From positions 1 to 64,000 of the forward strand of contig JAHFPN010000001.1 in NCBI GenBank assembly GCA_023269635.1: a DNA stretch of 64,000 bases. The letters are read 5' to 3'. Position 1 is the first letter of the stretch, and the number at the start of each line of letters is the position of its first letter. Positions 31,988-50,021 of the stretch are shown here, in pieces. The translations under genes and the position numbers were made by a program. The notes beneath the pieces were generated by a model. That model saw only the letters and a list, made by a program, of their open reading frames with translations, had not been told where the DNA came from and did no database searches. Source of the DNA: Hyphomicrobiales bacterium (GTDB lineage: Bacteria; Pseudomonadota; Alphaproteobacteria; Rhizobiales; Xanthobacteraceae).

Positions 31988-32173
31988 GCAGAAATTTCAA
32001 GGCTTGGAGTGGGCAGGGTCGCTGCGCCGCAGGCTTCATTCACACGAATGTGGGGGTAGCCCCCGCCCGGACCGAGGCATAAGATTACTCAACAAGCTCA
32101 GACCGAGCGTCGGTTGTGAGCTCTTAAGCGTAGGGGAACAACCGCGCTTCAATTTCCCGAGGGAGGACCATTG

Positions 32174-33547
32174 ATGAGCGAAGTAACGCGCAGGAACTTT
32201 CTCAACAATCTGGCGGTAGGTGCCGCAGCGGCGGCAACGGTGGCGCCGGTTACCTATTTCGCCGGACCGCGGCCCGCGCACGCGGCGATCAAGGTCAAGG
32301 GAGTCGTCCCGGACAAGCCGTTCAAGACCGGGCACATCACGTTTCTGACCGGACCCGCCAATCTCTTGGGCGAACCCGGCCGGAAAGGGCATCTGCTGGC
32401 GGCCGAAGAAATCAACGCCGAGGGCGGATTCCTGGGCAAGCGCAAGATCGAGACCATCATGGCCGACGAGGCCGCCGGCACCGACGCCAACGTGAAAGAG
32501 CTTCGCCGCATGAAGCTCTCCGAGAAGATCGACTTATTCACCGGCGTCATCTCCAGCGGCAACACGCCGGCGCTCGGCCCGGTCGCCGAGGAGCTCGGGC
32601 TGCTGACGATGTTCAACGACGGCTGCACCGACTTCCTGTTCGACAAGGCGGTGCCCAATCCGAAATACGTGTTCCGGGTGACCAACATCCAGTCGGCGGA
32701 CGGCGTCACGTCCGCGGTCGGCGCGGCGAAGGCTTGGCCGAACGCAAAGCGGGTCGCCTCGATCCAGCCGGACTACAGCTACGGCCGCAACGTGCATGAG
32801 CATTTCATGCTGGCGTACCAAAAGCTGGTCCCCGGCGCGACTTCCGTCTCCGAGGCATGGCCGAAGCTCGGCACCACCGACTTTACTCCGCACATCACCA
32901 AGCTGATTTCCGACACGCCGGACGTGTTGATCTGCGGCGTGTGGGGCGGTGACTACGTGGCGTTCTACAAGCAGGCGCTGCGCTACGGCCTGTTCGACAA
33001 GATGAAGGTCGCCACCACGCTCGCCTTCGGCGGGCAGCCGCACGCCATCGGCAAGGATCACCCCGAGGGCGTGCTGGCCGGCGTGCACGCCAACTACTTC
33101 TTCCTGCATCCGGCCAAAGGGCGCTGGCCGACCAACGACGGGTTCGTCGAGCGTTATTACAAGCGCTGGAGCGAATACCCGAGCTTCGAGTCGGACGGCG
33201 CCTATGCGTCGCTCTACCTGCTCAAGGCCGCCATCGAGAAAGCCAACCTGCTGGTGGGCGGTTGGCCGGAGGACGAAGTCATCATCGCCATGCTCGAAGG
33301 CATGGGGATGGATACGCCGGCCGGCTATCTCTACATCCGGCCCGACAACCACCAGGGCTACAAGGACGCCGTGATCGGGATGACCAAGAACAATCCCGCT
33401 TATCCATTCCCGGTTTGGGATCCGAACTCGATCATCACGATTCCCATCCGGGACATCACCGCGCCGCCGAATTGGCCGAAGCCCGGCACGACCCACAACG
33501 AGTCGACGGCGGCGGCCAACTGGCTGAAGACCACCTGGCTGACCTGA
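32174..33547 (+). CDS. LIV-type ABC importer binding protein, importer 3
   Basis: A 457-residue Peripla_BP_6 protein with a Tat signal (TRRNFLNN followed by a hydrophobic stretch to AHA). Mature segments include FKTGHITFLTGPANLLGEPG, GVISSGNTPALGPVAEELG and PDYSYGRNVHEHF. GGGAGGA lies six bases before the ATG; the TTG at 32171 in the track is less likely. It has an unusually Trp/Pro-rich C-terminal tail. It heads the importer 3 region but is separated from its permease genes by a 2.4-kb gene of unknown function. The ligand is unknown. Confidence 0.92.
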   Translation: MSEVTRRNFLNNLAVGAAAAATVAPVTYFAGPRPAHAAIKVKGVVPDKPFKTGHITFLTGPANLLGEPGRKGHLLAAEEINAEGGFLGKRKIETIMADEAAGTDANVKELRRMKLSEKIDLFTGVISSGNTPALGPVAEELGLLTMFNDGCTDFLFDKAVPNPKYVFRVTNIQSADGVTSAVGAAKAWPNAKRVASIQPDYSYGRNVHEHFMLAYQKLVPGATSVSEAWPKLGTTDFTPHITKLISDTPDVLICGVWGGDYVAFYKQALRYGLFDKMKVATTLAFGGQPHAIGKDHPEGVLAGVHANYFFLHPAKGRWPTNDGFVERYYKRWSEYPSFESDGAYASLYLLKAAIEKANLLVGGWPEDEVIIAMLEGMGMDTPAGYLYIRPDNHQGYKDAVIGMTKNNPAYPFPVWDPNSIITIPIRDITAPPNWPKPGTTHNESTAAANWLKTTWLT

Positions 33548-33626: not shown

Positions 33627-36002
33627 ATGCACCGGGGCCTGGATAGGTCGGCCGGACCGCGGATGCGCCTCGGCCGCCGAGTTTGCCGTGACTCAATCTG
33701 GCACGGGCGGGTCAAGCGCGCCGCCGCCTTGGCGATCGCCGCGGGACTCTTCATTGCCGGCGGCCAGAGCGGCGCCGGTCATTCGGTTGGTCACTATCCC
33801 TCCTATTTTCCCGACGAGATCCGCATCGACGTCGTCGATCCGACGGCGGCCGCCAAGGGTCTCGTCGATCAAACGCTGCATGCCTATGTCGGCGCAACGC
33901 CGGCGATCGTGGGACCCGTGCCGGGACACGTGAAGTCGGTGACCTCGCTGGGATCGTTTCTGGTCCTTTCCTTCGACACGACCTCCGCACGTTTCGCATC
34001 CGCCGAGGCTCGTTGCGCTGCCGCCCGCAGCGTTCTGGCGGCGCTCCGGGAGGAAAAAGCGGCCGGCTTCGTCTTCCACCCTTATCCGGTGACGCCCTAT
34101 CACGCCGACTACCTGCATCACGTGGACCGCGTCGAGGCCGCGAAGGACTCCGCCATTGGCGGAATTGCGCCGACGTTGCCCAAGAAAATCGGCGCCAAAG
34201 GCCGGCTGGCCGAAGCGATCGTCCGGGCGCGATGGGGGCTCTTGGCCGAAGGCGGGGACGTGACTCTTGAGGAGATTCCGGTTGACCGCCTATTCGCCGC
34301 CGTAAGCGTGCAGTTCGACGGTTGGTCGGGTCCGCCGTGGCTGAAAGACGGCTGGTTCCAGGCACATCGGCTGCTGGCCCCCGGTCTCGATGCCGCATCG
34401 CGGTCGGCGGTGGACGAAAACTATGCGCACCTGATCCGCGGCGAAGTCCTCGGCTTGGCGGAGCGGGCGGATCTGGAGCGGCGTCTGGTGGCGGCGCTCA
34501 CCAAGGGCTGCGAGCGAACGGTGGTCGGCTACACGCTGAAGGAGGAATACATCAACGAGGCGTACCCGTCCGGGGTCGAGAACGTCGCCTACGACTCGCT
34601 CGGCGGACTCAACTCGGCGATCTTCCTCCGCACCGTGAAGCTCAAGGAGTATCCGTGGAACGGCAAGCTGCAAATCGGGGTGCGCGATCGCCCCGGGGCG
34701 GCGTGGAACCCGGTGGCGGGCTTCACCGACGTCATGGGAAAGCTGATCTGGTCGGCCGTCGGCGATCCCGCCATGATTCCAATCCCGTTCAATGCGAGTT
34801 GGATGCCGAACCGCGTGCAAGCGGTCGTCACCAAAGTGGTCGGCCAATCCGGCGGCGTGCGAGTGCCGTCCGACGCGGTCCGCCCGCAGCCCGGAACCGG
34901 GATCTTGCAGCGCGCGGGCGTTGGAGTCTTCAGCTCGGCGAAGGTGGTTTACGAGGTTCTTGCTTCGCCCTTCGAGGACGGCACCGAGATGGAGGTGGCG
35001 GATCTGCTCTATCCGTTCGCTTTCATCTATCGCTGGGGGGCCAAAGCAGGCCCCGGCGATGACGCCCGCGAACCGGTGCTGCAAGCGGCCTTGGCGGCCA
35101 TGCAGGAGCGCCTGGCTGCGCTCAGCGTCGTGCGGGTGGAAAGGACGACCCATGCCATCTCCGAGGACATTAAAGTCGTCCAGAAAACGCCCGTGCTGGA
35201 GGTCTATCTCAGCAACGCGCCCGGCGACGACCGGCAGATAGCGGCGCTGGCGCCGCCGTGGAGCACGGTGCCCTGGCATCTGCTGGCACTGATGGAAGAA
35301 GCGGTCATCCGGGGATATGCGGCTTTTTCGGAAGCGGAAGCTGCCAGGCGGCGAATTCCTTGGCTCGATCTGGTTCGCGATCCGGCGCTCAGAGCGAAGA
35401 TGCTGGACCTGGTCGCGCAGTTCGAGCGTGAGCGCTATCGCCCCGAGCCGCTGAAAGATCTCGTTACCGCCGACGAGGCGGGAGCGCGCTGGCGGTCGCT
35501 CAGAATCTTCGCCGAAAAGAACGGCCATTTCCTGGTCGCCAACGGGCCCTATCGGCTAAAGCAATGGCAACCCGACGCGGTTGTGCTCGAGGCGGTCCGC
35601 GAGCAGACCTATCCCTTGGGCTTCGGCACCTTCGACCGCTTCGTCAATCCGCCGAGGGCAGTGATCAACGCCGTGACGCGACAGTCCGGCGAGATCTTCG
35701 TCCGCGCCCACGCCGAAATGGTCTTGAAAATGGGACGCGATTACCAGCTCGTGAAGGAACCGCTGTTGCGGACGACGTTGCGCGGGACCGTCGGACTGCT
35801 GGTCGTCTCGCGCTATCTGTTGATCGGCCCCGACGGCGCGGTTCTCGAACTTGACAAGATGCGGTGGATGGAGGACGGGCGCTTCGCCATCAAGCTTCCG
35901 CAACACTTGCAGCCGGGGCAGTACACCGTCTTGTTTGCCGTTTTTCTCGACGGCAACACGATCGATCCGAGCGTCGGCCGGCTCGGCGTCAAGATCGAAT
36001 GA
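33627..36002 (+). CDS. Exported two-part protein of unknown function (fused form of the 39.5-43.7 kb proteins)
   Basis: 791 residues with an N-terminal signal-like helix (VKRAAALAIAAGLFIAGG). After it the sequence GHSVGHYPSYFPDEIRI begins the N-half (about 50-410). The N-half is clearly homologous to the 379-aa protein at 39549 (shared: FVFHPYPVTPYHADYLHHVD, NSAIFLRTVKLKEYPWNG, WSAVGDP). The C-half (about 430-791) is homologous to the last 360 residues of the 879-aa membrane protein at 41048 (shared: PPWSTVPWH, YRPEPLKDLV, HFLVANGPYRL). In the C-half FEDGTEMEVADLLYPF and NGPYRLKQW recall SBP_bac_5 peptide-binding proteins. The start is uncertain; ATG 33663 would shorten the long n-region. It sits inside the importer 3 gene set. 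No named family is recognised for the N-half. Confidence 0.85.
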   Translation: MHRGLDRSAGPRMRLGRRVCRDSIWHGRVKRAAALAIAAGLFIAGGQSGAGHSVGHYPSYFPDEIRIDVVDPTAAAKGLVDQTLHAYVGATPAIVGPVPGHVKSVTSLGSFLVLSFDTTSARFASAEARCAAARSVLAALREEKAAGFVFHPYPVTPYHADYLHHVDRVEAAKDSAIGGIAPTLPKKIGAKGRLAEAIVRARWGLLAEGGDVTLEEIPVDRLFAAVSVQFDGWSGPPWLKDGWFQAHRLLAPGLDAASRSAVDENYAHLIRGEVLGLAERADLERRLVAALTKGCERTVVGYTLKEEYINEAYPSGVENVAYDSLGGLNSAIFLRTVKLKEYPWNGKLQIGVRDRPGAAWNPVAGFTDVMGKLIWSAVGDPAMIPIPFNASWMPNRVQAVVTKVVGQSGGVRVPSDAVRPQPGTGILQRAGVGVFSSAKVVYEVLASPFEDGTEMEVADLLYPFAFIYRWGAKAGPGDDAREPVLQAALAAMQERLAALSVVRVERTTHAISEDIKVVQKTPVLEVYLSNAPGDDRQIAALAPPWSTVPWHLLALMEEAVIRGYAAFSEAEAARRRIPWLDLVRDPALRAKMLDLVAQFERERYRPEPLKDLVTADEAGARWRSLRIFAEKNGHFLVANGPYRLKQWQPDAVVLEAVREQTYPLGFGTFDRFVNPPRAVINAVTRQSGEIFVRAHAEMVLKMGRDYQLVKEPLLRTTLRGTVGLLVVSRYLLIGPDGAVLELDKMRWMEDGRFAIKLPQHLQPGQYTVLFAVFLDGNTIDPSVGRLGVKIE

Positions 36003-36061: not shown

Positions 36062-36976
36062 GTGCGGCAAGGGGGGATGGTGACCGGGACGATCTTCGTC
36101 ATTCAGCTGCTCAACGCGCTTTTCTATGCGGCGGTCCTGTTCCTGATCGCCGCGGGCTTGAGCTTGATCTACGGCGTCATGCGCATCGTGAATCTGGCGC
36201 ATGGATCGCTCTACGCGCTCGGCGCCTATGTCACCGCCTGGGCGGTCGGCGGCGCGGTCGGCGCGGCGGTGGCCGGAACGCTCGGCCAAATCGGGCTGTT
36301 CCTGCTCCTGCCGATCGGCGCGATTGCGGTCGGCGTGCTCGGCGCCGTCATCGAGCCCACGCTGCTGCGCCCGCTCTACCGCAGGTCCGAGGAGTATCAC
36401 CTGCTGATTACCTTCGGCTTGCTCATGATCATCGAAGACATGCTCAAGTTGATCTTTGGCGGCACGCCGCTCACCGCCAGCAACATCATGGATGGCTTGG
36501 GATCGATTTCCGTCGGCGCCCTGCCTTACCCGACCTATAATCTTCTGGTGATCGCCATCGGCGTGGCGGCGGCGGTCGGCCTTTGGTGGTTTGTCTATCG
36601 CACGAAGTTCGGCGTGATCTTGCGCGCTATTTCCCAGGACCGGCGGATGGCGGCCGCGCTCGGCATCAATGTCGGGCGCGTCTATGTGCAGGCCTTCGCC
36701 ATCGGCTGCTTTATTACCGGCCTCGGCGGCGCCATCGTCGTTCCGGCCCAAGCCGCGGTGCTCGGCATGGGAGTCGAGTGGCTGATCGTGGCGTTCGTCG
36801 TGGTGGTGATTGGCGGGCTCGGAAGCCTCGAGGGCGCGCTCGTCGGCGCGCTGATCGTGGGCATCGCCCACGTCGCCGGCATCCAGTTCTTCGCCGAGAT
36901 CGAGCTTGCCGTGCTTTATTTGATCGCGACCGTGGTCCTCATGGTGCGGCCGACCGGCCTGTTCGGGAGGGCGTGA
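36062..36976 (+). CDS. LIV-type ABC importer permease (LivH), importer 3
   Basis: A 304-residue LivH permease with MRIVNLAHGSLYALGAYV, LRAISQDRRMAAALGIN and terminal RPTGLFGRA. The track start is GTG at 36062 after GGGGACGGGG; an ATG/GTG pair at 36077/36080 after AAGGGGGG is an alternative. It carries a longer first periplasmic region (AVGGAVGAAVAGTLGQIG) than importers 1 and 2. Confidence 0.92.
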   Translation: MRQGGMVTGTIFVIQLLNALFYAAVLFLIAAGLSLIYGVMRIVNLAHGSLYALGAYVTAWAVGGAVGAAVAGTLGQIGLFLLLPIGAIAVGVLGAVIEPTLLRPLYRRSEEYHLLITFGLLMIIEDMLKLIFGGTPLTASNIMDGLGSISVGALPYPTYNLLVIAIGVAAAVGLWWFVYRTKFGVILRAISQDRRMAAALGINVGRVYVQAFAIGCFITGLGGAIVVPAQAAVLGMGVEWLIVAFVVVVIGGLGSLEGALVGALIVGIAHVAGIQFFAEIELAVLYLIATVVLMVRPTGLFGRA

Positions 36977-36977
36977 G

Positions 36978-37997
36978 ATGGCGAACGCGGCCCTCGCGAC
37001 CACTGGCCCACGCACCGGCCCTTCCACCGGGCGGCTCGCTACGGTGGCTATCATCATCCTGCTGGTGTTGGTGGCGCTGCCGCGGATCGTCGATCCCTAC
37101 CAAACCGTGCTCGTCACCTATGGCTTGGCCATGGCCATCGCCGCGCTCGGGTTCAATCTACTGCTCGGCTACACCGGCCTTTTGTCCTTCGGCCATTCGG
37201 CCTATTTCGGTGCCGGCGCCTACACGGTCGCCTTCATCACCCGCGACCTCGCGGTCCAGTCCATGGAGCTCTGCATCCTGGGCGGATTGATCGGTGCGTG
37301 CGTGGTCGCGGCGCTATTCGGCTTCGTGTGCGTCCGCCACACGCGCATCTTCTTCGGGATTCTCACGCTTGCGCTGTCGCAGGTGCTCTGGAGCCTCGCG
37401 TTCAAGTTTTTCTGGGTTACCGGCGGCACCGACGGGATCCGGGTCGCCTATGCGAAGCTGACGCTCCTCGGCGGCATGATCAATTTCGCCGGGCCGGGTT
37501 CTTACCAGCGCTTCGTGTTTGCCTATTACTATTATGTGCTCGCCGTGTTCGCGATCGCCGCGGTCGTCATGTGGGTGATCGTGCATTCGCCGTTCGGCAA
37601 GGCGCTGCAGGCGATCCGCGACAACGAGGTGCGCGCCGGCTTTGTCGGCATCCCGGTGCGCCGCTATCGCTGGATCGCGTTCATCATCTCCGGCACCTTC
37701 ACCGGGATTGCCGGCGTCTTGTGGGTGCCGCTCAACGGCCTGACCACGCCCGACATTCTCTATTGGCCGTTCTCGGGCGAGCTCGTGTTCATGACCGTGC
37801 TCGGCGGATTCCGCAATTTCACCGGCCCCATCGTCGGAGCGGTGCTGTTCAACTATCTCAAGACCTACGCGGTCGCGAGCAGCGAATATTGGCAGCTCCT
37901 GCTCGGCGTGGTGCTCGTGGCCCTGGTACTGGTGCTGCCGTCGGGCGTCGTCGGCACCTTCGCGCGCCTCGGCCGTCGCTTCGCGAGGAGGCAATGA
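36978..37997 (+). CDS. LIV-type ABC importer permease (LivM), importer 3
   Basis: A 339-residue LivM permease with GYTGLLSFGHSAYFGAGAYTVA, KALQAIRDNEVRAGFVGIPV and GGFRNFTGPIVGAVLFNYLK. The start codon is one base after the livH stop. It has an Arg-rich C-terminal end (RLGRRFARRQ). Confidence 0.93.
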   Translation: MANAALATTGPRTGPSTGRLATVAIIILLVLVALPRIVDPYQTVLVTYGLAMAIAALGFNLLLGYTGLLSFGHSAYFGAGAYTVAFITRDLAVQSMELCILGGLIGACVVAALFGFVCVRHTRIFFGILTLALSQVLWSLAFKFFWVTGGTDGIRVAYAKLTLLGGMINFAGPGSYQRFVFAYYYYVLAVFAIAAVVMWVIVHSPFGKALQAIRDNEVRAGFVGIPVRRYRWIAFIISGTFTGIAGVLWVPLNGLTTPDILYWPFSGELVFMTVLGGFRNFTGPIVGAVLFNYLKTYAVASSEYWQLLLGVVLVALVLVLPSGVVGTFARLGRRFARRQ

Positions 37998-37998
37998 G

Positions 37999-38766
37999 AT
38001 GAACCTCCTCGAAACCGTCCATCTCAAGCGCTATTTCGGCGACACCCGCGCGGTCGACGACGTGAGCCTTTCCGTCGCCGAAGGCGAGTTCGTTTCCCTG
38101 GTCGGACCGAACGGCGCCGGCAAGACCTCCTTGGTCAACGTGGTGAGCGCCTATCTCAAGGCGGACTCGGGCACGATCCTGTTCCGGGGAGCGGACCTCA
38201 CCCATGCGTCGGTCACGGATCGGGTGAAGGCGGGAATCGCACGCAGCTTCCAGATCGTGAACCTGTTCGACGATCTCTCCGCGTTCGATAACGTGGCGCT
38301 CGCGATCTTCTCCCGCCAAGGCAAGACCGTGAACCTCATGGCGCTCGCTCATCTCGATCGCGACGTCACCGCCGAAGCCGATCACGTCCTCGCCCAGTTC
38401 AACTTGAGCGCCAAGCGTAGCGAGCTCGCGCGCGATCTCGCGCAAGGAGAACGCAAGCTCCTGGACGTCGCGCTCGCTTACGCGCTGCGGCCGAAGCTCT
38501 TGTTCCTCGACGAGCCGACGAGCGGCGTCAGCACCCGCGACAAGGGCCAGATCATGGATACCATCGCCTCGGTCGTGCGCGGCGAGGGCATCACTGCCGT
38601 GATCGTCGAGCACGACATGGACGTGGTGTTCAAGTATTCCGACCGCATCGTGGTGATGCACCAGGGCGCGATCCTGGCCCAGGGCACCCCCGACGAGATC
38701 CGCAAGAACGAGCAGGTGGCGATGATCCTGATCGGCTCGGCGGACGCCTTCGCGCGAAAGGATTGA
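37999..38766 (+). CDS. LIV-type ABC importer ATPase (LivG), importer 3
   Basis: A 255-residue ATPase with Walker A GPNGAGKTS, FQIVNLFDDLSAFDNV, signature LAQGERKLLDVALA, Walker B LLFLDEPTSGVS and H-loop VEHDMDVV. It starts one base after livM and its stop overlaps the TTG start of livF. Confidence 0.93.
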   Translation: MNLLETVHLKRYFGDTRAVDDVSLSVAEGEFVSLVGPNGAGKTSLVNVVSAYLKADSGTILFRGADLTHASVTDRVKAGIARSFQIVNLFDDLSAFDNVALAIFSRQGKTVNLMALAHLDRDVTAEADHVLAQFNLSAKRSELARDLAQGERKLLDVALAYALRPKLLFLDEPTSGVSTRDKGQIMDTIASVVRGEGITAVIVEHDMDVVFKYSDRIVVMHQGAILAQGTPDEIRKNEQVAMILIGSADAFARKD

Positions 38767-39491
38767 CCGCCGTGCTCGAGATCAAGGCGATCGACACGTT
38801 TCGCGGCCCCGCCCACATTCTGAACGGGGTCTCGCTGCGCGTGGACCGGCAAGAAGTGGTGTGCCTGGTCGGGCGCAACGGCGCCGGCAAGACCACTACG
38901 ATCGAAAGCATCATGGGCTTCCTGCCGGTGCGGGCCGGCCAGATCGTGTTCCACGACGAGGATGTCACCTCGCTTCCGCCGCACGAGCGCGCCAAGCGCG
39001 GCATCGGCTATTCGCCGGAGGATTGCGGCGTGTTCCCGGAGCTTTCCGTGGCCGAGAACCTGATGATCAGCCGCTGGCTCGGGGACGAGGTCGTCCGCCG
39101 GAGGAACGGCGGCCCCCGCCCCGATCCCGAGGCGCAGGCGTTCGAGCTCTTCCCCGAAGTGAAGAACCTATTGCAGCGCCAGGGCCTGCACTTGAGCGGC
39201 GGGCAGCGCAAGATGGTGGCGATCGCGCGCGCCATAATGCTGTCGCCGACGCTGCTCCTGCTCGACGAGGCATTCGAGGGTCTGGCGCCGGTAGTGGTCA
39301 ACCGCTTCATCGATGCGGTGATGAAGATCAAGGCGATGGGCATCTCCATCCTGATGGCGGAGTCGCATCTCGGCGCCGCGACGCGGATCGGGGATCGGCT
39401 CTATGCCATCGACCGCGGCGAGATCATCTTCCACGGACCGCCCAAGGATGCGCTCGCCGACGAGAAGGTGGTGAAGGCCTTGCGCGGCTAG
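38763..39491 (+). CDS. LIV-type ABC importer ATPase (LivF), importer 3
   Basis: A 242-residue LivF ATPase with Walker A GRNGAGKTT, signature LSGGQRKMVAIARAI, Walker B LLLLDEAFEGLAP and H-loop AESHLGAA, where the usual EQN is ESH. The start is TTG overlapping the livG stop; a GTG at 38772 is the alternative. It ends importer 3 and is followed after 57 bp by the split-form exported protein on the same strand. Confidence 0.92.
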   Translation: MTAVLEIKAIDTFRGPAHILNGVSLRVDRQEVVCLVGRNGAGKTTTIESIMGFLPVRAGQIVFHDEDVTSLPPHERAKRGIGYSPEDCGVFPELSVAENLMISRWLGDEVVRRRNGGPRPDPEAQAFELFPEVKNLLQRQGLHLSGGQRKMVAIARAIMLSPTLLLLDEAFEGLAPVVVNRFIDAVMKIKAMGISILMAESHLGAATRIGDRLYAIDRGEIIFHGPPKDALADEKVVKALRG

Positions 39492-39548
39492 TCCACGCCG
39501 TGCCCTGATCGCGGCGCAAGCGCGCCCGGGCCCAGGTTGGTTGTCGCG

Positions 39549-40688
39549 ATGAATCGGAAGAGCGTACTCGTGGTCGCGATGGCGGCCGCCATGGTAACCG
39601 TGGCGCGGAGCGGCCACGAGCTCCCGGTCTATCCGTCCTTTTATCCGAACGAGATCGAGATTTCGACGGTCGCGCCGGTGCCGGCGGCCGCGCTGCTGCT
39701 CGAGGGCAAGCTGCACGCCTATGTGGGCGAGCCGCCGCGCTTCGCCGGCCCGCCCCCCGACACGGTGCAGAAGGTGGAGTCGCTCGGCGCTTTCCTGGTC
39801 GTGCGCGCCAATCCGGCGCTGGCTGACGAAGCCTCCGCCTGCGCTGCGGTGCGCGCGGTCGCTGCCGATCTTGCCGGCCGAAGCGGGGAGTTCGTCTTCC
39901 ATCCCTATCCGCTGACGCCGATGCATGGCGACTTCTTGCATCACGTCGATCTCGCGGAAGCCGCGAAGGCTCGGCTCCTCGCCGCAACGGCCGATTCGGC
40001 GATGCGCGAGCTCAAGGTGCGCGCCGATAGCGCGCTGGCACTGAGCCTGATCCGGCCGGCATGGCTCGCTCCGGGCCAGGAATGGGACGTGGAGATCGTG
40101 GAGATTTCCGCGGCCGAGCTCGCGTCCTCCTCCGCGTTCGCGATCAATGGATGGCTCGGGCCGCCCTGGCTGAAACAGGGATGGTTCCACGCAGCTTTGC
40201 TCTTGGGGCCTTCCGTTGCTGAACCCGCGGCGACGAGCCGGGTCGAAGCCATGGCGACGCGCCTTCGGGAGCGCGCCTATGTCGGGTTGGCCGAGCAGAT
40301 CAAACTTGAGCGGGAGCTCGTGACCGTGCTCGTACGCGGCTGCCGTGCCGTGGTCGCCGGCTACAGCCTGAAGCGCGAATATTTCAACGCCGAGTTCTCG
40401 GCCGGGATCGAGAACATCGGGTTCGATTCCATCGCCGGGATGAATTCGGCGATCTTCCTGCGCACCGCGAAGCTGAAGGATTTTCCCTGGAACGGCTGGC
40501 TCGCGCTCGGGATCGCGGCGCCGCCGGCTGCGGCCTGGAATCCCATCGCCGGCTTCAGCGATCCGTTCGGGCGGCTGATGTGGTCGGCGATCGGCGATCC
40601 TGTGATGCTGCCCGCGCCCAATGACTCAAGCTGGATGCTGAACCGCGCGTCCGACGTGGATTCGGTCCCGGCCTCAAAGACGGAGTGA
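39549..40688 (+). CDS. Exported protein of unknown function, paralogue of the N-half of the 33627 protein
   Basis: 379 residues. A signal peptide (SVLVVAMAAAMVTVARS) is followed at once by GHELPVYPSFYPNEIEI, closely like the 33627 protein at the same place. Other shared blocks are LHAYVGEPP, FVFHPYPLTPMHGDFLHHVD, GWLGPPWLKQGWFHAALLL, NSAIFLRTAKLKDFPWNG and WNPIAGFSDPFGRLMWSAIGDP. It stops where the SBP_bac_5-like C-half begins in the fused form. No known domain is recognised. It lies four bases before the cupredoxin-like gene. I prefer ATG 39549 to the TTG at 39537. Confidence 0.85.
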   Translation: MNRKSVLVVAMAAAMVTVARSGHELPVYPSFYPNEIEISTVAPVPAAALLLEGKLHAYVGEPPRFAGPPPDTVQKVESLGAFLVVRANPALADEASACAAVRAVAADLAGRSGEFVFHPYPLTPMHGDFLHHVDLAEAAKARLLAATADSAMRELKVRADSALALSLIRPAWLAPGQEWDVEIVEISAAELASSSAFAINGWLGPPWLKQGWFHAALLLGPSVAEPAATSRVEAMATRLRERAYVGLAEQIKLERELVTVLVRGCRAVVAGYSLKREYFNAEFSAGIENIGFDSIAGMNSAIFLRTAKLKDFPWNGWLALGIAAPPAAAWNPIAGFSDPFGRLMWSAIGDPVMLPAPNDSSWMLNRASDVDSVPASKTE

Positions 40689-40692
40689 CACC

Positions 40693-41076
40693 ATGAGACC
40701 AATCTTCTCGCTCGCCCGTATTCTGGCCATTGTGGGCGCGCTGACGTTGATCGCGGGCCTCGCCGGCCCGACCGCGCAAGCCGAAGAGCTCACGTTCGAT
40801 CTGAAGATCGCGCAGGGTCGCGTGCCGGCGGACATGCGCGTCGTCCGCGTCAAGCAGGGCGACGTCGTCAAACTGCGCTGGACCTCCGATCGGCTCGTGG
40901 TCCTGCACCTGCACGGCTACGATATCGAGCGGACGGTGCAACCGGGCGACACCGCGGAGATGAGTTTTACCGCCCGGGTCACGGGAAGGTTTTCCATCAC
41001 GCGCGGCGCGCCGGTGACGGGCGGCGGCCACACCCACGAGGCATCGATTGTCACGCTCGAAGTGCATCCGCGCTAG
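40693..41076 (+). CDS. Small exported cupredoxin-like, His-rich protein
   Basis: 127 residues with a signal peptide (ILAIVGALTLIAGLAGPTAQA) and one beta-sandwich domain of cupredoxin type. KQGDVVKLRWTSDRLVVLHLHGYD gives the strand-turn-strand pattern, followed by VQPGDTAEMSF and VTGRFSI. There is no Cys for a classical blue-copper site. Potential ligands are His in HLHGYD and in GGGHTHEAS. Similar small proteins (EfeO-type cupredoxin_1) accompany membrane metal or oxidase proteins. It overlaps the start of the 879-aa membrane protein by 29 bp and follows the N-half paralogue by four bases, so the three are one unit. Confidence 0.8.
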   Translation: MRPIFSLARILAIVGALTLIAGLAGPTAQAEELTFDLKIAQGRVPADMRVVRVKQGDVVKLRWTSDRLVVLHLHGYDIERTVQPGDTAEMSFTARVTGRFSITRGAPVTGGGHTHEASIVTLEVHPR

Positions 41077-43687
41077 CACGGCTGCGCTGCTCGCTTGTGT
41101 TGCCGCCGGCTCGGCGAGCGCGCACGGCTTCGGCCAGCGCTATGAGCTGCCGCTGCCGCTCTCGTTCTATCTGGTCGGCACCGCGGCGGCGGTGGTGTTC
41201 ACCTTCGTCATGGTCGGGCTGTTCGTGCGGCGCGCGCGGCGGCCGGAGGCCGGTGTTCGCGTCGATCTTCTCGCGCATCCGGTCGGACGGCTGCTCGCGC
41301 GCCTGGATTTGCCGCTCAAGCTGATCACGCTCGTCCTCTTTCTCGCCACGCTCTATGCGGGGTTCTTCGGCAATCAGGATCCATATCGGAACATCGCGCC
41401 GACGCTGGTGTGGATCATCGGCTGGGTCGGCCTCGCCTATGTTTCCGCCCTGATCGGCAACGTCTGGGCGGTGATCAATCCTTGGCGCACGCTGTTCGAC
41501 GCGGTCGACCGGCTCTGGCGGCGGCGCACCGGCGGTACGCTCGGGCTCGGCTGGCGCTATCCGCCGGCACTTGGGGTCTGGCCCGCCATCGTGCTCTTGC
41601 TCGCGTTCTCCTGGACCGAGCTCGTCTATCCGACGCCGGCCATGCCGTTCCACGTCGCCGGCTTCGCGCTCGCCTATTCGGCGCTGACCTGGACCGGGAT
41701 GTTCGTGTTCGGCCGCGATGCCTGGCTTCGGCACGGCGAGGTGTTCAGCCTCGTGTTCGGCGCCTTCGCTCGCCTCGCGCCGACCGACCTGAAGAGCGGC
41801 GACGCCGCCGGCGCGTCCGCGCAATGGACGCTCCGGCCGTTCGCCGCCGGCCTGGTGGGCGAGGTCTCCCCGTCCATGACCGCGTTCGTGCTGCTCCTGC
41901 TCTCGACCGTTCTCTACGACGGGCTGCTCAGCACGCCGGAATGGGCGGCATTCGAACGCGCGGCTGTGGCGCCGCTCGCCGGTTTCGGCGAGCTCGGCGC
42001 CACCGCGGTTCGCACCGTCTGCCTCGTCGTCTTCTGGCTCCTGTTCCTCGGCGCCTATCGGGCGGTGAGCGCGCTCATGAGTTGGGCCGTCGGCGGAATC
42101 CGCTCGCCGCAGGAAATCGCGCACGGCTTCGCGCTCACGCTGATCCCGATCGCGATCGGCTACCACGTCGCGCATTACCTCCTGTTCCTGCTGATCCAGG
42201 GCCAGTACATCGTGCCGCTGCTCTCCGACCCGTTCGGCTATGGCTGGAACCTGTTCGGCACCGCCGGCTATCGGCCCGACATTGCGCTCGTCGGCGCGCG
42301 CTTCGCCTGGTACGTGGCGGTATCCGCGGTCGTGCTCGGCCACATCGTCGCGGTCTATCTCGCGCACGTGCGGGCGATGCAGGTATTCGGCGCGCGCGCG
42401 GCGGTGCTGCGCTCGCAGGTGCCGCTCACCGCGCTCATGGTGGTCTACACCTTCGTGAGCCTGTCGATCCTGGCCGAGCCGATCGTGCAGCAACGCGAGG
42501 CCGCGCAGCCCGCCGCGACGCCGACGATCGAGATCGCGATTCCCGCCGACGCCCTCTTGCCGGCGCCGGGCCGCGGCGAGCTCGTGCCGGTCGGCCCGGG
42601 CAAGCAGGCGCGGCAGAAATTGACCTATCGGCTGCTCGGCTCCGCGTTCCATGACGGAACGCGCACGACCGGCGCCGACCTTCTCTACGCTTATATGTTC
42701 GCCTTCCGCTGGGGCGTGCGCGCGGATACCGGCGCGCACTACGACCCGGCCATCGACGCCGCCACCGCGACCGTGCGCCGGCACATTGCGGCCTTGCGCG
42801 TCATCGGTCTCGACACCGCGTCGCGCTCGTTCCGCGTCGGCGACGTCAATTTCGTTCGCGAACTGATCGGCATCGAAGTCTATACCACGGTCGCGCTGGT
42901 CGATCCGGACCGCGACGCGGGCGTTGCACCGCCCTGGAGCACGCTGCCCTGGCACGTGGTCGTGCTGATGGAGGAGGCGGTCAGCCGCGGGTGGGCCGCG
43001 TTTTCCGAGACCGAGGCTCGGCGCCGCGGCGTTGCGTGGCTCGATCTGGTCCGATCCGAGGAACTGAAGGCGAAGCTTCAGTCCTTGGTCGCGGAATTCG
43101 AGCGCAGCGGCTATCGCCCCGAACCGCTGCAATCGTTGGTGAGCGCCGAGGACGCGCGGCGGCGCTGGGCCGCGCTCGCCGCGTTTCACAAGGAGCGCGG
43201 GCATTTCCTGGTGACCAACGGGCCCTATCGGCTGAAGGCCTGGCGGGCCGACAGCGCGACGCTCGAGGCGTTTCGCGACTTGAGCTACCCGCTCGGCGTC
43301 GGCTCTTACGACGCCTACGCGATTCCGCGCCGGGGTTTCGTGACCCGCATCGAGGACAAGAACGGCCGGCTGAAGATTTCCGCCGACATCGAGATCATCC
43401 GGAAATTTCAACGCAGCTATGCGATCGACCGGCTGCCGCTCGAAACCATCGCGCCGGTGGTCGCGACGCGCGCCGCGCCGGAATGCCGATACATGGTGGT
43501 GGACGAGGACAACCGGGTGGTCGCGGCCGGCACGGTGCGGCCCGGCGCGGGTTCGCTTTTCGAGATCAACCTCGAAGCCAGGCTCGCGCCCGGCCGCTAC
43601 GCGATGTTTGCGATGATCGTGGTGAACGAGAACGCGATGAATGCCGAGATCCGGCGTATCCCGATTTCGATCCCTTCCGGACAATGA
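41048..43687 (+). CDS. Polytopic membrane protein fused to an SBP_bac_5-like domain
   Basis: 879 residues. The signal peptide ends SASA-HGFGQRYELPLPL, putting His at the mature N-terminus. About ten hydrophobic segments follow to about residue 485, with in-membrane His (GYHVAHYLLFLL, VLGHIVAVYLAHV) and INPWRTLFD. This part resembles proteins labelled 'fenitrothion hydrolase' in databases, recalled and not searched. From about 520 the C-half matches the 33627 protein and has SBP_bac_5-like FHDGTRTTGADLLYAY and NGPYRLKAW. The start is TTG with GAGG upstream, overlapping the cupredoxin gene. The large antisense ORF (41051-44611) is a shadow. Confidence 0.85.
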   Translation: MSRSKCIRASTAALLACVAAGSASAHGFGQRYELPLPLSFYLVGTAAAVVFTFVMVGLFVRRARRPEAGVRVDLLAHPVGRLLARLDLPLKLITLVLFLATLYAGFFGNQDPYRNIAPTLVWIIGWVGLAYVSALIGNVWAVINPWRTLFDAVDRLWRRRTGGTLGLGWRYPPALGVWPAIVLLLAFSWTELVYPTPAMPFHVAGFALAYSALTWTGMFVFGRDAWLRHGEVFSLVFGAFARLAPTDLKSGDAAGASAQWTLRPFAAGLVGEVSPSMTAFVLLLLSTVLYDGLLSTPEWAAFERAAVAPLAGFGELGATAVRTVCLVVFWLLFLGAYRAVSALMSWAVGGIRSPQEIAHGFALTLIPIAIGYHVAHYLLFLLIQGQYIVPLLSDPFGYGWNLFGTAGYRPDIALVGARFAWYVAVSAVVLGHIVAVYLAHVRAMQVFGARAAVLRSQVPLTALMVVYTFVSLSILAEPIVQQREAAQPAATPTIEIAIPADALLPAPGRGELVPVGPGKQARQKLTYRLLGSAFHDGTRTTGADLLYAYMFAFRWGVRADTGAHYDPAIDAATATVRRHIAALRVIGLDTASRSFRVGDVNFVRELIGIEVYTTVALVDPDRDAGVAPPWSTLPWHVVVLMEEAVSRGWAAFSETEARRRGVAWLDLVRSEELKAKLQSLVAEFERSGYRPEPLQSLVSAEDARRRWAALAAFHKERGHFLVTNGPYRLKAWRADSATLEAFRDLSYPLGVGSYDAYAIPRRGFVTRIEDKNGRLKISADIEIIRKFQRSYAIDRLPLETIAPVVATRAAPECRYMVVDEDNRVVAAGTVRPGAGSLFEINLEARLAPGRYAMFAMIVVNENAMNAEIRRIPISIPSGQ

Positions 43688-43722: not shown

Positions 43723-44601
43723 CTAGCGCCGCTTCATGGTCGGATCGAGCGCGACCCGCATCGATTCGCCCAAGGCATTGAACGCAAGCGCGGTGAGCAG
43801 GATCGCCATCCCGGGCGCATACATCTGCTCCGGCGCGATCTCGATGTAGTTGTAGGCCCGCGCCAGCATTCCGCCCCAGCTCGCCGCCGGCGGCTGCACC
43901 CCGAGCGCGAGGAAGCTTAAAGAAGCTTCCGCCAGGAGCGCGATCGCCAGCATCAGCGTCACCTGCACGATCACCGGCTGAATCGCGTTCGGCACGATGT
44001 GGCGGACGATGATGTGCGCCGTGCTGGCGCCGAAGCCGCGCGCGGCGTCGACATAGAGCGCGTTCTTCACCACCAGCGTCTGCGCCCGCACCAGCCTTGC
44101 CAGCACCGGCGCGAACACGAAGCCGACCGACAGCATCGCGTTGGTCAGCCCGATGCCGAGCACGCCGGTCACGGCGATCGCGAGCACGATGGGCGGAAAC
44201 GAGAGCAGGGCGTCGATGAACCGGCTCGCGACCTCGTCGATCCATCCGCCCAGGAAGCCGATCACCAGGCCGACCGGGACCCCGAGCACGATCGCGACGC
44301 TCACCGCCAGGCTCGACGCATAGAGCGAGTTCGGCGCGCCCCAGATCAGCCGGCTGAGCACGTCGCGTCCGAGATCGTCGGTGCCGAGCCAATGCTCGGC
44401 GCTTGGCGGCACCAGGAGCTGGGCGACGTTCTGTTCGACCGGCGAGTAAGGCGCGATCAACCAGGCGAACAGCGATACGATCACCAGCAGTCCGAGATAC
44501 GATAGGCTCAAGACCGCGCGCAGGTCGTTGCGCGCCCAACGCCAGATCGTGGCGCGGCGCGACCGGCGCGGCAACGACGGAGCGGCGAGCTCGATGGTCA
44601 T
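43723..44601 (-). CDS. Dpp/Opp-type ABC importer permease (DppC)
   Basis: A 292-residue permease with the OppC N-terminal region (FAWLIAPYSP), HWLGTDDLGRDVLSRLIWG, six hydrophobic segments and the EAA loop (DAARGFGASTAHIIVRHIVPN). The ATG overlaps the dppB stop (ATGA); the track's longer start is a shadow. It ends the Dpp operon and is convergent with the membrane/SBP_bac_5-like gene. Confidence 0.93.
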   Translation of the reverse strand: MTIELAAPSLPRRSRRATIWRWARNDLRAVLSLSYLGLLVIVSLFAWLIAPYSPVEQNVAQLLVPPSAEHWLGTDDLGRDVLSRLIWGAPNSLYASSLAVSVAIVLGVPVGLVIGFLGGWIDEVASRFIDALLSFPPIVLAIAVTGVLGIGLTNAMLSVGFVFAPVLARLVRAQTLVVKNALYVDAARGFGASTAHIIVRHIVPNAIQPVIVQVTLMLAIALLAEASLSFLALGVQPPAASWGGMLARAYNYIEIAPEQMYAPGMAILLTALAFNALGESMRVALDPTMKRR

Positions 44602-45551
44602 GCTTCGGCAACCCTCGGGTCGAGCAGCGCGTTCAGCACATCGACGATCAGATTGACCAGGATCACGATCGTCACCAGCACCAGCACCACGCCCTGCACC
44701 ACCGGGAAGTCCTTGTTGATGGCCGAATAGGCGACGAGGCTGCCCGCGCCGGGGATCGCGAACACCGCCTCGATCACCACGGCGCCCGAGAACAGCCGGT
44801 TCACCTGCAGCCCGAGCAGGGTCAGCAGCGTCACGCTGACGTTGCGCAAGCCGTGCTTCCACAGGATGGCGAACGGGCCGAGACCCTTGGCGCGCAGCGT
44901 CCGCACATATTGCGAGTTGAGCACCTCGATCAGCGCGCTCCGCGTCTGGCGGGCCAACTCGGCGATCACGCCGGTCGCGAGCGCGATGGCGGGCAGGGTG
45001 GCGTGCTGCAGCGCCCCCCTAGGGTCGACGTTGAAAGCTCTCGCCCCGGTTGCCGGAAACCAGCGTGCCTGCAGCGAGAACGTCACGATCAGGAGGATCG
45101 CGAGCCAGAAGCTCGGCAACGCCACCCCGAGCGAGGCGACGCTGGTCACGAAGGTATCGACGCGCGAGCCGATCCGGGTCGCCGCCAGCACGCCGAGCGG
45201 AATGCCGATCATCGCCGCCAGCACGAGCGCGTAGCTGGCGATCAGGATCGTGTTCGGCAGCCGTTGCAGGATCAGATCGAACACCGGCGCGCTCGACAAC
45301 AGCGAGTTTCCGAGATCGCCGCGCACCGCGTGCAGGAGCCACACCCCGTATTGAACGAGCAGCGGCCGGTCGAAGCCGTATTGCTGGCGGATTTCCTCGA
45401 TCCGCTCCTTCGAGGCGTAGTCGCCGGCCAGCGTGACCGCGGGATCGCCCGGCACGAACTGCAGCAGCGCGAACACCACGAAAGTCGCGAACACGATGAT
45501 CGGCAGCAACTGCCCCAACCGGCGCCCGATCAGAACGGGAAGCTTGGCCAT
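44598..45551 (-). CDS. Dpp/Opp-type ABC importer permease (DppB)
   Basis: A 317-residue DppB permease. An N-terminal membrane segment precedes VPGDPAVTLAG and the YGFDRPLLVQYGVWL region, followed by five more segments and the EAA loop VRTLRAKGLGPFAILWKHGLRN. It lies 53 bp downstream of the binding-protein gene and pairs with DppC. Confidence 0.93.
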   Translation of the reverse strand: MAKLPVLIGRRLGQLLPIIVFATFVVFALLQFVPGDPAVTLAGDYASKERIEEIRQQYGFDRPLLVQYGVWLLHAVRGDLGNSLLSSAPVFDLILQRLPNTILIASYALVLAAMIGIPLGVLAATRIGSRVDTFVTSVASLGVALPSFWLAILLIVTFSLQARWFPATGARAFNVDPRGALQHATLPAIALATGVIAELARQTRSALIEVLNSQYVRTLRAKGLGPFAILWKHGLRNVSVTLLTLLGLQVNRLFSGAVVIEAVFAIPGAGSLVAYSAINKDFPVVQGVVLVLVTIVILVNLIVDVLNALLDPRVAEA

Positions 45552-45604
45552 CGCGTTCGCGTCTCTTGCTGCCGGTCGCTAATGCCGCGGCCGCCGGGCA
45601 ACGC

Positions 45605-47170
45605 TCATGCTCGCAACCAGACCTCGGTGAATTTTGGCACTGCGATCAGGCTGTCTTGATGGTTTTGCACCTTCGGATTGGCGACGCTGACGGCCGGCGA
45701 GATGTACTGCACCATCTGCATGGCCTGCTCGGCCACGAAACGCTGCAGTTTCACGAAAGCGGCCTTGCGCGCGGCCTGGTCCGGCGCCTCCATGGTCGCG
45801 TCGAGCAGCTCGCGGAAGCCCGGCAGCTCGATGCCGCTGGCGTTGCGCAAAGCGGTCTTGCCGAACAGCGCTTCGTAGAGCTGGCTCGGATCGGGGAACG
45901 CCGACGACGGACTGATGAACATCGCGCCCTTCTTCTCGATCATGAACGCCTGCACCGCCTGCTGCGGCGCCAGCGCCGTGAGCTTGATGCGGATGCCGAC
46001 CTTGGCGAGTTGCGAGATGATCACTTCTTGCCGCTGCATCGCCAGCTGGTCGGCCCATCCATAGGCCTCGATCTCGAGGCCGTTCGGGTGGCCGGCATCG
46101 GCCAGGAGCTTCTTCGCCTTGTCGGGGTCGAACGGATAGAAATTCTGGGTCGCCGGATCGCACGCCCAGTGCTCCCTCGGCAGGATGGCGCTCGACACCT
46201 GCCCGAGGCCGACCGCGGAGATCTTGTTGATCTCGTCGCGATTGATCGCGTAGTTGAGCGCCTGCCGGATGCGGACGTCGTTGAGCGGCGGCCGCCCGTA
46301 ATTCAGAAACGCGCCGAACAGCACCAGCGAAGGGCTCGCGGTCGCGACGACGTTCGGCGCGCGGTCCGCGACGGCCTTCTGCGCGGGCTGCAGATTGATG
46401 GCGAGATCGGCTTCGCCCGCGACCACCGCACGCACCGCGGTATTGAGCTCGTTGATGATCTTGATGTTGATGCCGTCGAGGTAAGGCAGGCCCGGCTTCC
46501 AATAGTTCTCGTTGCGCACCAGCACGAAGCTGTCGTTGTCCTGCCAGCTCACGAACTTGAACGGGCCGGTGCCGATCGGCTTGCGGTCGACGTTGCCGCC
46601 GGCGGCTTCCTGGAGCGACTTCGGGGACACGATCAGGCCGACGCGATTGGTCAGGATGTTCGGCAAGCCGGCGTTCGGCCGGTTGAGCTTGAACGTGACC
46701 TGGCTCTTGCCGGTCACCGCGACGCTTTCGACGGTGGCGACATCGGCCTTCACGTTCGAGCGCGGGTCATTCTTGTAGCGCTCGATGTTCAGCTTCACCG
46801 CTTCGGCATTGAACGGCGTGCCGTCGTGGAAGTTGACGCCCTCGACCAGCTCCAGCACCAGCGTCTTCGGGTCGGTGAATTTCCAGGACTTGGCGAGGCC
46901 GGGTTTGAGATCGAGCGTCCGCGGTTCGAAATCGATGAGCGCGTCGAACACCGCGTAGAGGACGTCGAAATCGGTGAGATTCCGTCCCGTCATCGGATCG
47001 ACCGAACCGGGGTTGTAGGGCATCGCCAGCCGCAGCGTGCCGCCCCTGCGCGGCGCGCCCTGTGCCCGGAGGCTGTTCGGCAAGAGCAGCGCGCCGCCGG
47101 CTGCGGCCGCGCCCTTCAATACGTCGCGGCGATGAAACGCTGTTCCGCGGAACTCGTCTCGTTTGGCCAT
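45605..47170 (-). CDS. Dpp/Opp-type ABC importer binding protein (SBP_bac_5)
   Basis: A 521-residue periplasmic binding protein with a Tat-like signal (HRRDVLKGAAAAGGALLLP). Mature-protein hallmarks are GGTLRLAMPYNPGSVDPM, VNFHDGTPFNAEAVK, IGTGPFKFVSW and the lid segment RIRQALNYAINRDEI. GGGAGGAAGG precedes the ATG at 47170. The ligand may be a peptide, nickel chelate or another amphipathic compound; it cannot be read here. It lies third in the run of two ATPases, binding protein, DppB, DppC. Confidence 0.93.
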   Translation of the reverse strand: MAKRDEFRGTAFHRRDVLKGAAAAGGALLLPNSLRAQGAPRRGGTLRLAMPYNPGSVDPMTGRNLTDFDVLYAVFDALIDFEPRTLDLKPGLAKSWKFTDPKTLVLELVEGVNFHDGTPFNAEAVKLNIERYKNDPRSNVKADVATVESVAVTGKSQVTFKLNRPNAGLPNILTNRVGLIVSPKSLQEAAGGNVDRKPIGTGPFKFVSWQDNDSFVLVRNENYWKPGLPYLDGINIKIINELNTAVRAVVAGEADLAINLQPAQKAVADRAPNVVATASPSLVLFGAFLNYGRPPLNDVRIRQALNYAINRDEINKISAVGLGQVSSAILPREHWACDPATQNFYPFDPDKAKKLLADAGHPNGLEIEAYGWADQLAMQRQEVIISQLAKVGIRIKLTALAPQQAVQAFMIEKKGAMFISPSSAFPDPSQLYEALFGKTALRNASGIELPGFRELLDATMEAPDQAARKAAFVKLQRFVAEQAMQMVQYISPAVSVANPKVQNHQDSLIAVPKFTEVWLRA

Positions 47171-47246
47171 TTTCCTTCCTCCCTGCGTGCTCGCCGCGGC
47201 GGGTTGCCGCTCGCGCCGAACGTGGCTGTTGGTTTCGGATAGAGTG

Positions 47247-48289
47247 CTAGCTCTTGATCGCGTTCTCAACTCCTATCGCGCGTGGCGGCCCGGCTCGTCC
47301 CACCTCAACGGTCTTTGCCGGCTCGACGAAATGGCAGGCCACGAGGCGGCCGGGCGCGACTTCCCGCCATTCCGGCTCGCGTTGGGCACATTCCGCAACC
47401 GCAAGTGGGCAGCGGGTATGGAACCGGCAACCGCTTGGCGGCGCCAGTGCACTCGGGATTTCGCCCTTCAGGATGATGCGCTGCCGGTTTCGCAGCCGGG
47501 CGGGGGCCGGCTCCGGCTCCGCCGACAACAGCGCCTGGCTATAGGGGTGAAGCGGCGCCGTCATCAGCGCGCCGGCCGGGCCGAGCTCGACCAGTTTTCC
47601 GAAATACATCACCGCGACGCGATCGCTCATATGGGCGACGACGCGAAGGTCGTGGCTGATGAAGACGTAGGTGAGTGCGAATTCGCGCTGCAAGTCGGCG
47701 AACAGGTTCAACATGTCGGCCTGGATCGAAACGTCGAGCGCCGCCACCACCTCGTCGCACACGATCAGGCGCGGCTCCAGTACCAGCGCGCGCGCGATAT
47801 TGGCGCGCTGTTTCTGGCCTCCGGAAATCTCGTGCGGATAGCGATGCGCCAATTCCGGAGCCAGCGCGACCCGCTCCAGCATCGCCAGCGCCTTCCGGCG
47901 CCGCTCGTCCGGGGTTCCGGTGCCGGCGACGTCGAGCGGCTCGCGCACGGTTTCGAGGATGGTCATGCGCGGATCGAGCGCCGAATTGGGGTCTTGGAAG
48001 ATGATCTGGAACGAACGGCGGTGGCGGCGCAGCTCGCTTGCGCTCAATGCGAACGGATCCTGCGCGAAATGCAGGACCTGCCCGCGGGTCGGCGGGATCA
48101 GGCACACGAGACAGCGGCCGACCGTCGTCTTGCCGGAGCCGGATTCGCCGATGATGCCGAAGGTCTCGCCCTGCTGGACGCTGAAGCCCACCCCGTCCAC
48201 GGCCCTGATGATCTGGCCGCGGTGACGGCCGGCGAAATCGATCACGAGGTCTTTGACCCGCAAGATCTCGTCGGACTCCTCGCGCGCGT

Positions 48290-48293
<4 letters not shown>
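47247..48293 (-). CDS. Dpp/Opp-type ABC importer ATPase (DppF/OppF)
   Basis: A 348-residue ATPase with Walker A GESGSGKTT, FQDPNSALDPRMT, signature ISGGQKQRANIARAL, Walker B LIVCDEVVAALDVS and H-loop ISHDLRVV. The C-terminal oligo_HPY region carries CRFHTRCPLAVAECAQ, a Cys set typical of the iron-sulphur-binding tail in some OppF/DppF. The start overlaps the preceding ATPase stop. Confidence 0.93.
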
Positions 48294-49330
<1,037 letters not shown>

Positions 49331-49451
49331 GGGCCAAGCGCGTTTCCGGAATGATTTATCGCATAGCGCGCCGCGCTTGATAAGGAGCCGGCGAAGCGCG
49401 GTTTCTTCGACCTTCGCGCGAACCGAAATCGGGCGCGTCCGTTCGATCGCG

Positions 49452-50021
49452 CTAGCGCTCGAACAAATCGGGCCGCCGCAGCCGCAGCGTCTGCACCAGC
49501 GCGAGCGTCTTGATATCGGTGAGCTCGCCGGCGTCGGCCATTTCGGCAAGGCGCTGCAAGCCGATTTCGACCACGCTGATCCGCTCGTGTTCATCGGCGG
49601 ATCCGCCGCCGGGCGATATCCGGTCGGCCTCGGCATAGGCGGCGAGATAGAGGTCCATGCGCTCGGTCGAGAGGCCCGGCATGGTCCAGCCGGTCGCCAC
49701 GTGTTCCAGCGTCGCAAGCTTGAGACCGGCTTCCTCGAGCGCTTCGCGCCGCGCGGTGTCGCCCGCGCTTCCTCTCTCCACGATGCCGGCAATCGCCTCC
49801 AGGGTCTCTTCCTGGTTGCTGGCGAAAAACACCGGCGCGCGAAACTGGCGAACCAGGATCGCCGTCTTGCGGACCGGATCATAGGGCAGCACGCTGGCCG
49901 CGTTGCCGTGATCCTCGACCTCGCGGCGGACGCTCGTGGCATCGGCCAGGACGATTGTCAGCACCAGCAGCCGGCACCAGCCCTGGTACGCGGCTTTGGT
50001 TTCAACGATCTCGATCGGCAT
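49452..50021 (-). CDS. Nudix hydrolase, ADP-ribose/nucleotide-sugar pyrophosphatase type
   Basis: A 189-residue protein with the NudF/NudK layout: VLPYDPVRKTAILVRQFR, then a Nudix box. The box reads AGIVERGSAGDTARREALEEAGL. REALEEAG, which binds the metal, is intact, but the upstream conserved Glu is Ser and the spacing is one residue short. It probably hydrolyses a nucleoside-diphosphate derivative, possibly with altered metal binding. It stands alone, 121 bp beyond the Dpp operon start and divergent from the PRPP-synthase-like gene. Confidence 0.82.
   Translation of the reverse strand: MPIEIVETKAAYQGWCRLLVLTIVLADATSVRREVEDHGNAASVLPYDPVRKTAILVRQFRAPVFFASNQEETLEAIAGIVERGSAGDTARREALEEAGLKLATLEHVATGWTMPGLSTERMDLYLAAYAEADRISPGGGSADEHERISVVEIGLQRLAEMADAGELTDIKTLALVQTLRLRRPDLFER

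Follow-up and report, generated by a model that had tools for sequence, protein, structure and literature searches.

The locus described here raises the question of why a membrane protein should carry part of a solute-binding protein (SBP) at its C-terminus, and of whether such a hybrid serves an importer or acts independently of one. It lies in a 64,000-nucleotide stretch from a Hyphomicrobiales bacterium (the window, meaning the whole of the stretch analysed). The open reading frame at 41048-43687 (+), which begins with a TTG codon and overlaps the preceding cupredoxin gene by 29 bp, encodes an 879-aa fused protein made up of an apparent signal peptide (residues 1-25), a mature membrane domain whose first residue would be His (residues 26-489; 41123-42514, +) and the C-terminal half of a permuted SBP, hereafter the C-half (residues 490-879; 42515-43687, +). 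By family-averaged hydropathy, the ten segments fall within mature residues 16-449, that is, in the first 450 or so residues of the mature protein. The C-half has FHDGT at residue 534, followed by PWSTLPWH and NGPYRLK (NGPYR at about 725), and ends in a beta-rich tail. A sequence-only reading had described a ten-segment membrane protein joined to an SBP-like domain, which the reading frame, the presence of both motifs and the homology given below bear out; it had put the start of that domain at 42590 (residue 515), and while the extension is real, it actually starts near 42515, at about residue 490. That reading was also right about the order of the peptide-binding motifs but not about their spacing, which is 191 residues from FHDGT to GPY as against 88 in the canonical SBP encoded from 45605, and is close to that of TkOppA, an archaeal oligopeptide-binding protein (PDB 7fi3).

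TkOppA is also where the sequence searches lead. Used as a bare sequence, residues 490-879 matched residues 69-295 of TkOppA (E 3.4e-6), the sole match in the PDB sequence set, so the resemblance of the C-half to an SBP is not a matter of chance; as profiles, the fused protein and the C-half matched this solved member of family 5 with E 4.4e-18 and 3.4e-21, respectively. An AlphaFold model of the fused protein was weak (pLDDT 70.6, pTM 0.50), but its single PDB match below 0.001 in Foldseek was again 7fi3 (E 2.5e-8), in agreement with the OppA-like fold that had been proposed. A comparison with Pfam family SBP_bac_5 (PF00496; gathering score 32.4 bits), suggested in the same reading, gave no match to the 879-aa protein even at E 5 and only 12.1 bits for a 791-aa homologue encoded in the same operon; among all of the proteins concerned, solely two distant relatives, L089 and L090, reach the gathering score. 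Searches of the fused and uncut proteins against Pfam and NCBIfam produced nothing over cut-off, so that annotation pipelines would miss the family.

The domain is indeed of type II, as had been claimed, but it makes up only about half of the fold, and its partner half is encoded separately at 39537-40688 (+). Both halves are recognisable from the 791-aa secreted homologue (33627-36002, +), an uncut, circularly permuted OppA-like SBP, whose only matches in this assembly are itself and the two reading frames in question. The C-half is 39% identical to its second half (E 8e-85), while the separate product, a secreted protein of 383 aa (the N-half), is 45% identical to residues 50-400 in its first half (E 7e-100). 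The AlphaFold model of the 791-aa protein, made with 21 homologues, is a good deal better (pLDDT 82.9, pTM 0.84); all of its PDB matches in Foldseek at E<=0.001 are family-5-type SBPs, with 7fi3 at the top (E 3.3e-13). The type II, cluster C fold is thus found in the model of the uncut homologue and, within the fused protein, for the C-half alone. The split pair retains 75 of the 91 positions conserved in the uncut proteins, and the split point corresponds to a stretch of lower confidence in the 791-aa model (residues 351-360, block mean 66). In the mature N-half and 791-aa protein, His2 is nearly invariant and a motif HPYPVTPxHxD is found at residues 101-111; together these might possibly form a metal or ligand site.

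The order of the halves is not the canonical one of a single chain with the usual succession of lobes: it is permuted throughout the family, and in the fused form it is spread over two chains. A profile of the 791-aa protein aligns TkOppA residues 22-298 with mature residues 309-602 (E 7.5e-21); since residue 22 is near the start of TkOppA, the part ahead of residue 309 has to be one of two things, a domain added to the fold or the piece of it that has been displaced. The distant relatives L089 (5219-7741) and L090 (6033-8618, -) are permuted OppA-like SBPs of another proteobacterial family, encoded in ordinary Dpp-type operons, and share the layout of the window family. In L089 the matches come in swapped order, TkOppA 90-310 corresponding to residues 496-716 and TkOppA 402-586 to residues 123-296; in addition, positions 147-355 of SBP_bac_5 correspond to residues 51-285. 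The window family aligns with L089/L090 over 318 columns of the N-half (26-351 to 66-445, E 4.5e-8) and, as a whole profile, with E 1.4e-26. The permutation is thus seen directly in the sequences of the relatives; for the window protein it is deduced from the alignment to them. Rotation of the profile against SBP_bac_5 gave no clear peak for the permutation point, the likely reason being that a joined alignment is prevented by the 191-residue spacing, and the case is accordingly built on the swapped-order matches.

All nine genes of the operon lie on the + strand, with gaps ranging from -29 to about 80 bases, in the order LivK, 791-aa protein, LivH, LivM, LivG, LivF, N-half, cupredoxin-like protein and membrane protein fused to C-half. 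The Liv-type importer is complete, having a type I LivK-type SBP (32171-33547, +; PF13458), two BPD_transp_2 permeases of LivH type (36062-36976, +; PF02653) and LivM type (36978-37997, +; PF02653), and two ABC ATPases of LivG type (37999-38766, +; PF00005) and LivF type (38763-39491, +; PF00005). The NCBIfam equivalog cut-offs for UrtABCDE were not reached (UrtB 168.7 vs 250.3 bits, UrtD 186.9 vs 304.1). Type I rather than type II binding proteins are the usual partners of Liv-type importers. A separate Dpp/Opp-type operon (43723-49942, -), which includes the canonical SBP_bac_5 protein (45605-47269), is convergent to the fused gene and is outside the system described here. An acyl-CoA synthetase of subfamily NF009232 (over cut-off) is encoded at 30054-31907 (+), between two Liv-type operons, and a gene of the benzoate-CoA-ligase family follows the operon in L040. 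Acyl-CoA synthetases (the window, L040) and GMC oxidoreductases (L023, L041, L044) recur as neighbours, and no single neighbouring enzyme is conserved across the loci; the neighbours hint weakly at aromatic or alcohol-derived acids as the substrate.

The explanation that best accommodates all of this, and to which as a whole we would give about an even chance, is that of a two-chain, membrane-tethered receptor serving the co-encoded LivHMGF. On this view, the extension would supply the rear part of an OppA-like SBP (family 5, type II) in circularly permuted order, 39537-40688 would encode the front part as a chain of its own, and the two together would rebuild the fold of the uncut 791-aa protein. 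Signal peptides would export both the N-half and the fused protein, and both ends of the ten-helix membrane protein are predicted to face the periplasm; because the back half is fused to this protein, the assembled two-lobed receptor would be anchored in the inner membrane beside LivHMGF. Ligand would be captured and handed over to the importer, which, to judge by the gene order, may be served also by soluble LivK and, usually, by the soluble uncut receptor. Most fusion loci retain the uncut protein too, and it is possible on that account that the split form does something different.

The ten-helix protein itself belongs to a widespread family, with homologues turning up in 43 of the 299 genomes sampled from the phylum, as well as on haloarchaeal, actinobacterial and proteobacterial plasmids (a plasmid search with the uncut protein gave none). 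Its stand-alone members have about 440-540 aa, and close ones stop no more than a few residues from the model end and the fusion point; among these close homologues, only the operon copies carry the extension of about 390 aa. The small secreted protein encoded just upstream (40693-41076, +) has an HLHGYD ... H motif and scores 17.5 bits (E 0.0044) against Cupredoxin PF13473, under its gathering score of 27 bits; by eye, the usual Cys ligand is absent. A gene of this kind is a conserved partner of the membrane gene, preceding it in alpha-, beta- and actinobacterial relatives as far as Variovorax and Mycobacterium dioxanotrophicus. The name "fenitrothion hydrolase", which we had taken to be a candidate for the membrane family, was dropped, since the papers searched cited the enzyme but offered no link by sequence; an identity with DUF2182/PpoB2 was likewise set aside, with one weak match and no paper found. 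The membrane domain of the Rhodospirillales locus L044 (2663-4150) contains a Cys-rich insert, recalling the Fer4_5 of the distant homologues L107 and L113.

One possibility, then, is that the membrane protein and the cupredoxin form a copper-dependent module, a redox or hydrolytic enzyme to which the split SBP delivers its substrate and whose product is imported by LivHMGF. In the close homologues checked, an AxA-like site (cleavage read by eye) is followed by a His, which would become the mature N-terminus, the position at which histidine-brace copper proteins bind the metal through the terminal amine and two His; the cupredoxin-like partner is present across the three groups just named; relatives adjoin a methane/ammonia-monooxygenase-like cluster, a PCu(A)C copper chaperone gene with a Liv importer, or a gene for a BugD-type binding protein; His residues are conserved within the membrane segments; one family member gives a weak PpoB2 copper-chaperone match (E 0.0036); and the two distant homologues score for Fer4_5. 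These features point to a probably copper-related module used with uptake systems. Against an enzyme, no enzyme family was found for the membrane part at curated cut-off, and the cupredoxin has the sub-threshold score and missing Cys noted above; we regard this alternative as possible but rather doubtful. Much the same tentative standing is given to a version of the tethered receptor in which the permuted type II protein, in two chains, is held by a putative copper-binding ten-helix protein together with the cupredoxin, and a metal-dependent step, linked to capture, comes ahead of import.

The sequence-only reading had favoured a sensor, channel or enzyme over a classical importer. Its observation of a binding-protein domain anchored to a membrane domain with no recognised ABC-permease identity holds, and SBP domains fused to membrane sensors do exist, BvgS-type kinases being an example, so that the SBP half might conceivably gate or signal through the membrane domain independently of any importer. 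The domain searches, however, recognised neither a kinase nor a cyclase nor a channel, and the fusion accompanies LivK, LivHMGF and the missing SBP half. The idea of a domain standing apart from an importer is not supported by the gene order, with a LivK, LivHMGF and the uncut 791-aa homologue of its own directly upstream and the missing half only two genes away. A stand-alone sensor or channel is thus unlikely, and, given the complete Liv-type importer encoded ahead of the fusion, a receptor anchored in the membrane and working for that importer is more likely than a sensor, a channel or a stand-alone enzyme.

Less probable still is that the N-half is an unrelated accessory domain and the extension a degenerate half-SBP with a new role. 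A profile of the N-half gave only weak matches in the PDB (parvovirus capsids, for example), and in hhalign the window N-half has no significant match to a canonical SBP profile. Its link to canonical SBPs is through intermediates rather than direct, but those intermediates, from Dpp-type operons, tie it to the same parts of SBP_bac_5 and TkOppA that are displaced in L089.

The system is not confined to the window. A scan of the GTDB species set yielded 25 loci, in which the uncut form is found alone, beside LivK-LivHMGF, in Rokubacteria, a Deltaproteobacterium and Betaproteobacteria; both forms are found in Xanthobacteraceae and other Hyphomicrobiales, including several Bradyrhizobium, and in Vineibacter; and the split form alone is found in Acetobacteraceae (L043, L045, L046 and L047, of which the first and last have the whole LivK-LivHMGF context and the other two are short contigs). 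The split/fused form spans three alphaproteobacterial orders. Wherever a fusion locus extends far enough for a verdict, the N-half is found immediately before the fusion and the LivK/LivHMGF arrangement recurs. Upstream of several uncut-form operons and on the opposite strand (L033, L035, L038-L042; e.g. L038 7652-8434, -) there is also a conserved gene for a protein of about 220-270 aa, with no Pfam match at E 1e-5. In Bradyrhizobium sp. AS23.2 (L028, 11839-14515), the fused gene is in two overlapping frames, through either a frameshift or a sequencing error.

Trees of the N-halves, C-halves and membrane domains each require a single change, between uncut and split or between alone and fused. 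The corresponding branches have support of 100/98 for the C-halves and 98/90 for the membrane domains; that for the N-halves is weak (82/0), yet the split appears in 200 of 200 bootstrap trees. By all three trees, the split/fused form arose once. For pairs with enough divergence, dN/dS is 0.16-0.33 in the membrane part, the C-terminal extension and the N-half, so the form is under purifying selection. An assembly error or a decaying fusion, which the fragmented window assembly (232 contigs) and the interrupted Bradyrhizobium copy might have suggested, has a negligible claim and is already refuted by the presence of the same fusion, as one clade under that selection, in more than 15 independent assemblies, including those of named isolates. 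The simplest origin for a tethered receptor would be a single event in which a pre-existing pair of cupredoxin and membrane genes inserted into the linker of a receptor gene that had been duplicated, so that the N-half was severed and the membrane gene joined in frame to the C-half. The order N-half, cupredoxin, membrane protein with C-half is the one expected after such an insertion, and stand-alone pairs of this kind exist; in the Betaproteobacterium L041, the uncut gene adjoins a divergent cupredoxin and stand-alone membrane protein pair.

The window family can thus be placed within the family-5 fold as a permuted and divergent branch that falls short of the Pfam cut-off and has a new split and tethered form. 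The fused copy resembles a natural split receptor anchored by an unnamed, widespread membrane family with copper-like features, and the fusion gives that family a functional context in uptake systems. Two questions become open to experiment: can a pair of lobes made as distinct polypeptides act as a single receptor, and does a copper module have a part in the uptake of solutes?

Among known systems, GlnPQ and OpuA are importers with an SBP fused to the permease and, as appears to be the case here, the binding protein is held at the membrane; here, in contrast, what is fused is half an SBP, and its membrane partner bears no relation to the ABC permeases. The co-encoded importer is of the Liv/Urt type (LivKHMGF), its LivK-type SBP and UrtB/LivH-like permease being recognised, but the operon adds type II receptors, a cupredoxin and a ten-helix protein, all foreign to known Liv/Urt systems. 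TkOppA, the closest solved structure by both sequence and fold search, shares the VPxDA...FHDG...GPY region with a long insert before GPY, but it is a single chain in the usual order with no membrane fusion, while the window family is permuted and its fused copy comprises two chains. With the SBP_bac_5 proteins (DppA/OppA), such as that encoded at 45605-47269, the 791-aa homologue shares its fold and FxDGT followed by GPY; it differs in falling under the Pfam cut-off, in its motif spacing, in its swapped halves and in its association with Liv-type rather than Dpp-type permeases. A literature search found no natural permutation of family 5, which does not prove that there is none. One parallel is TpMglB-2 (Tp0684) of Treponema pallidum, a naturally circularly permuted binding protein of an ABC importer (PMC4990184). 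It is a type I glucose-binding lipoprotein in one chain, whereas the window family is of type II, has uncut and split versions that can be compared, sometimes within the same operon, and in the latter is both split and fused to a ten-helix protein.
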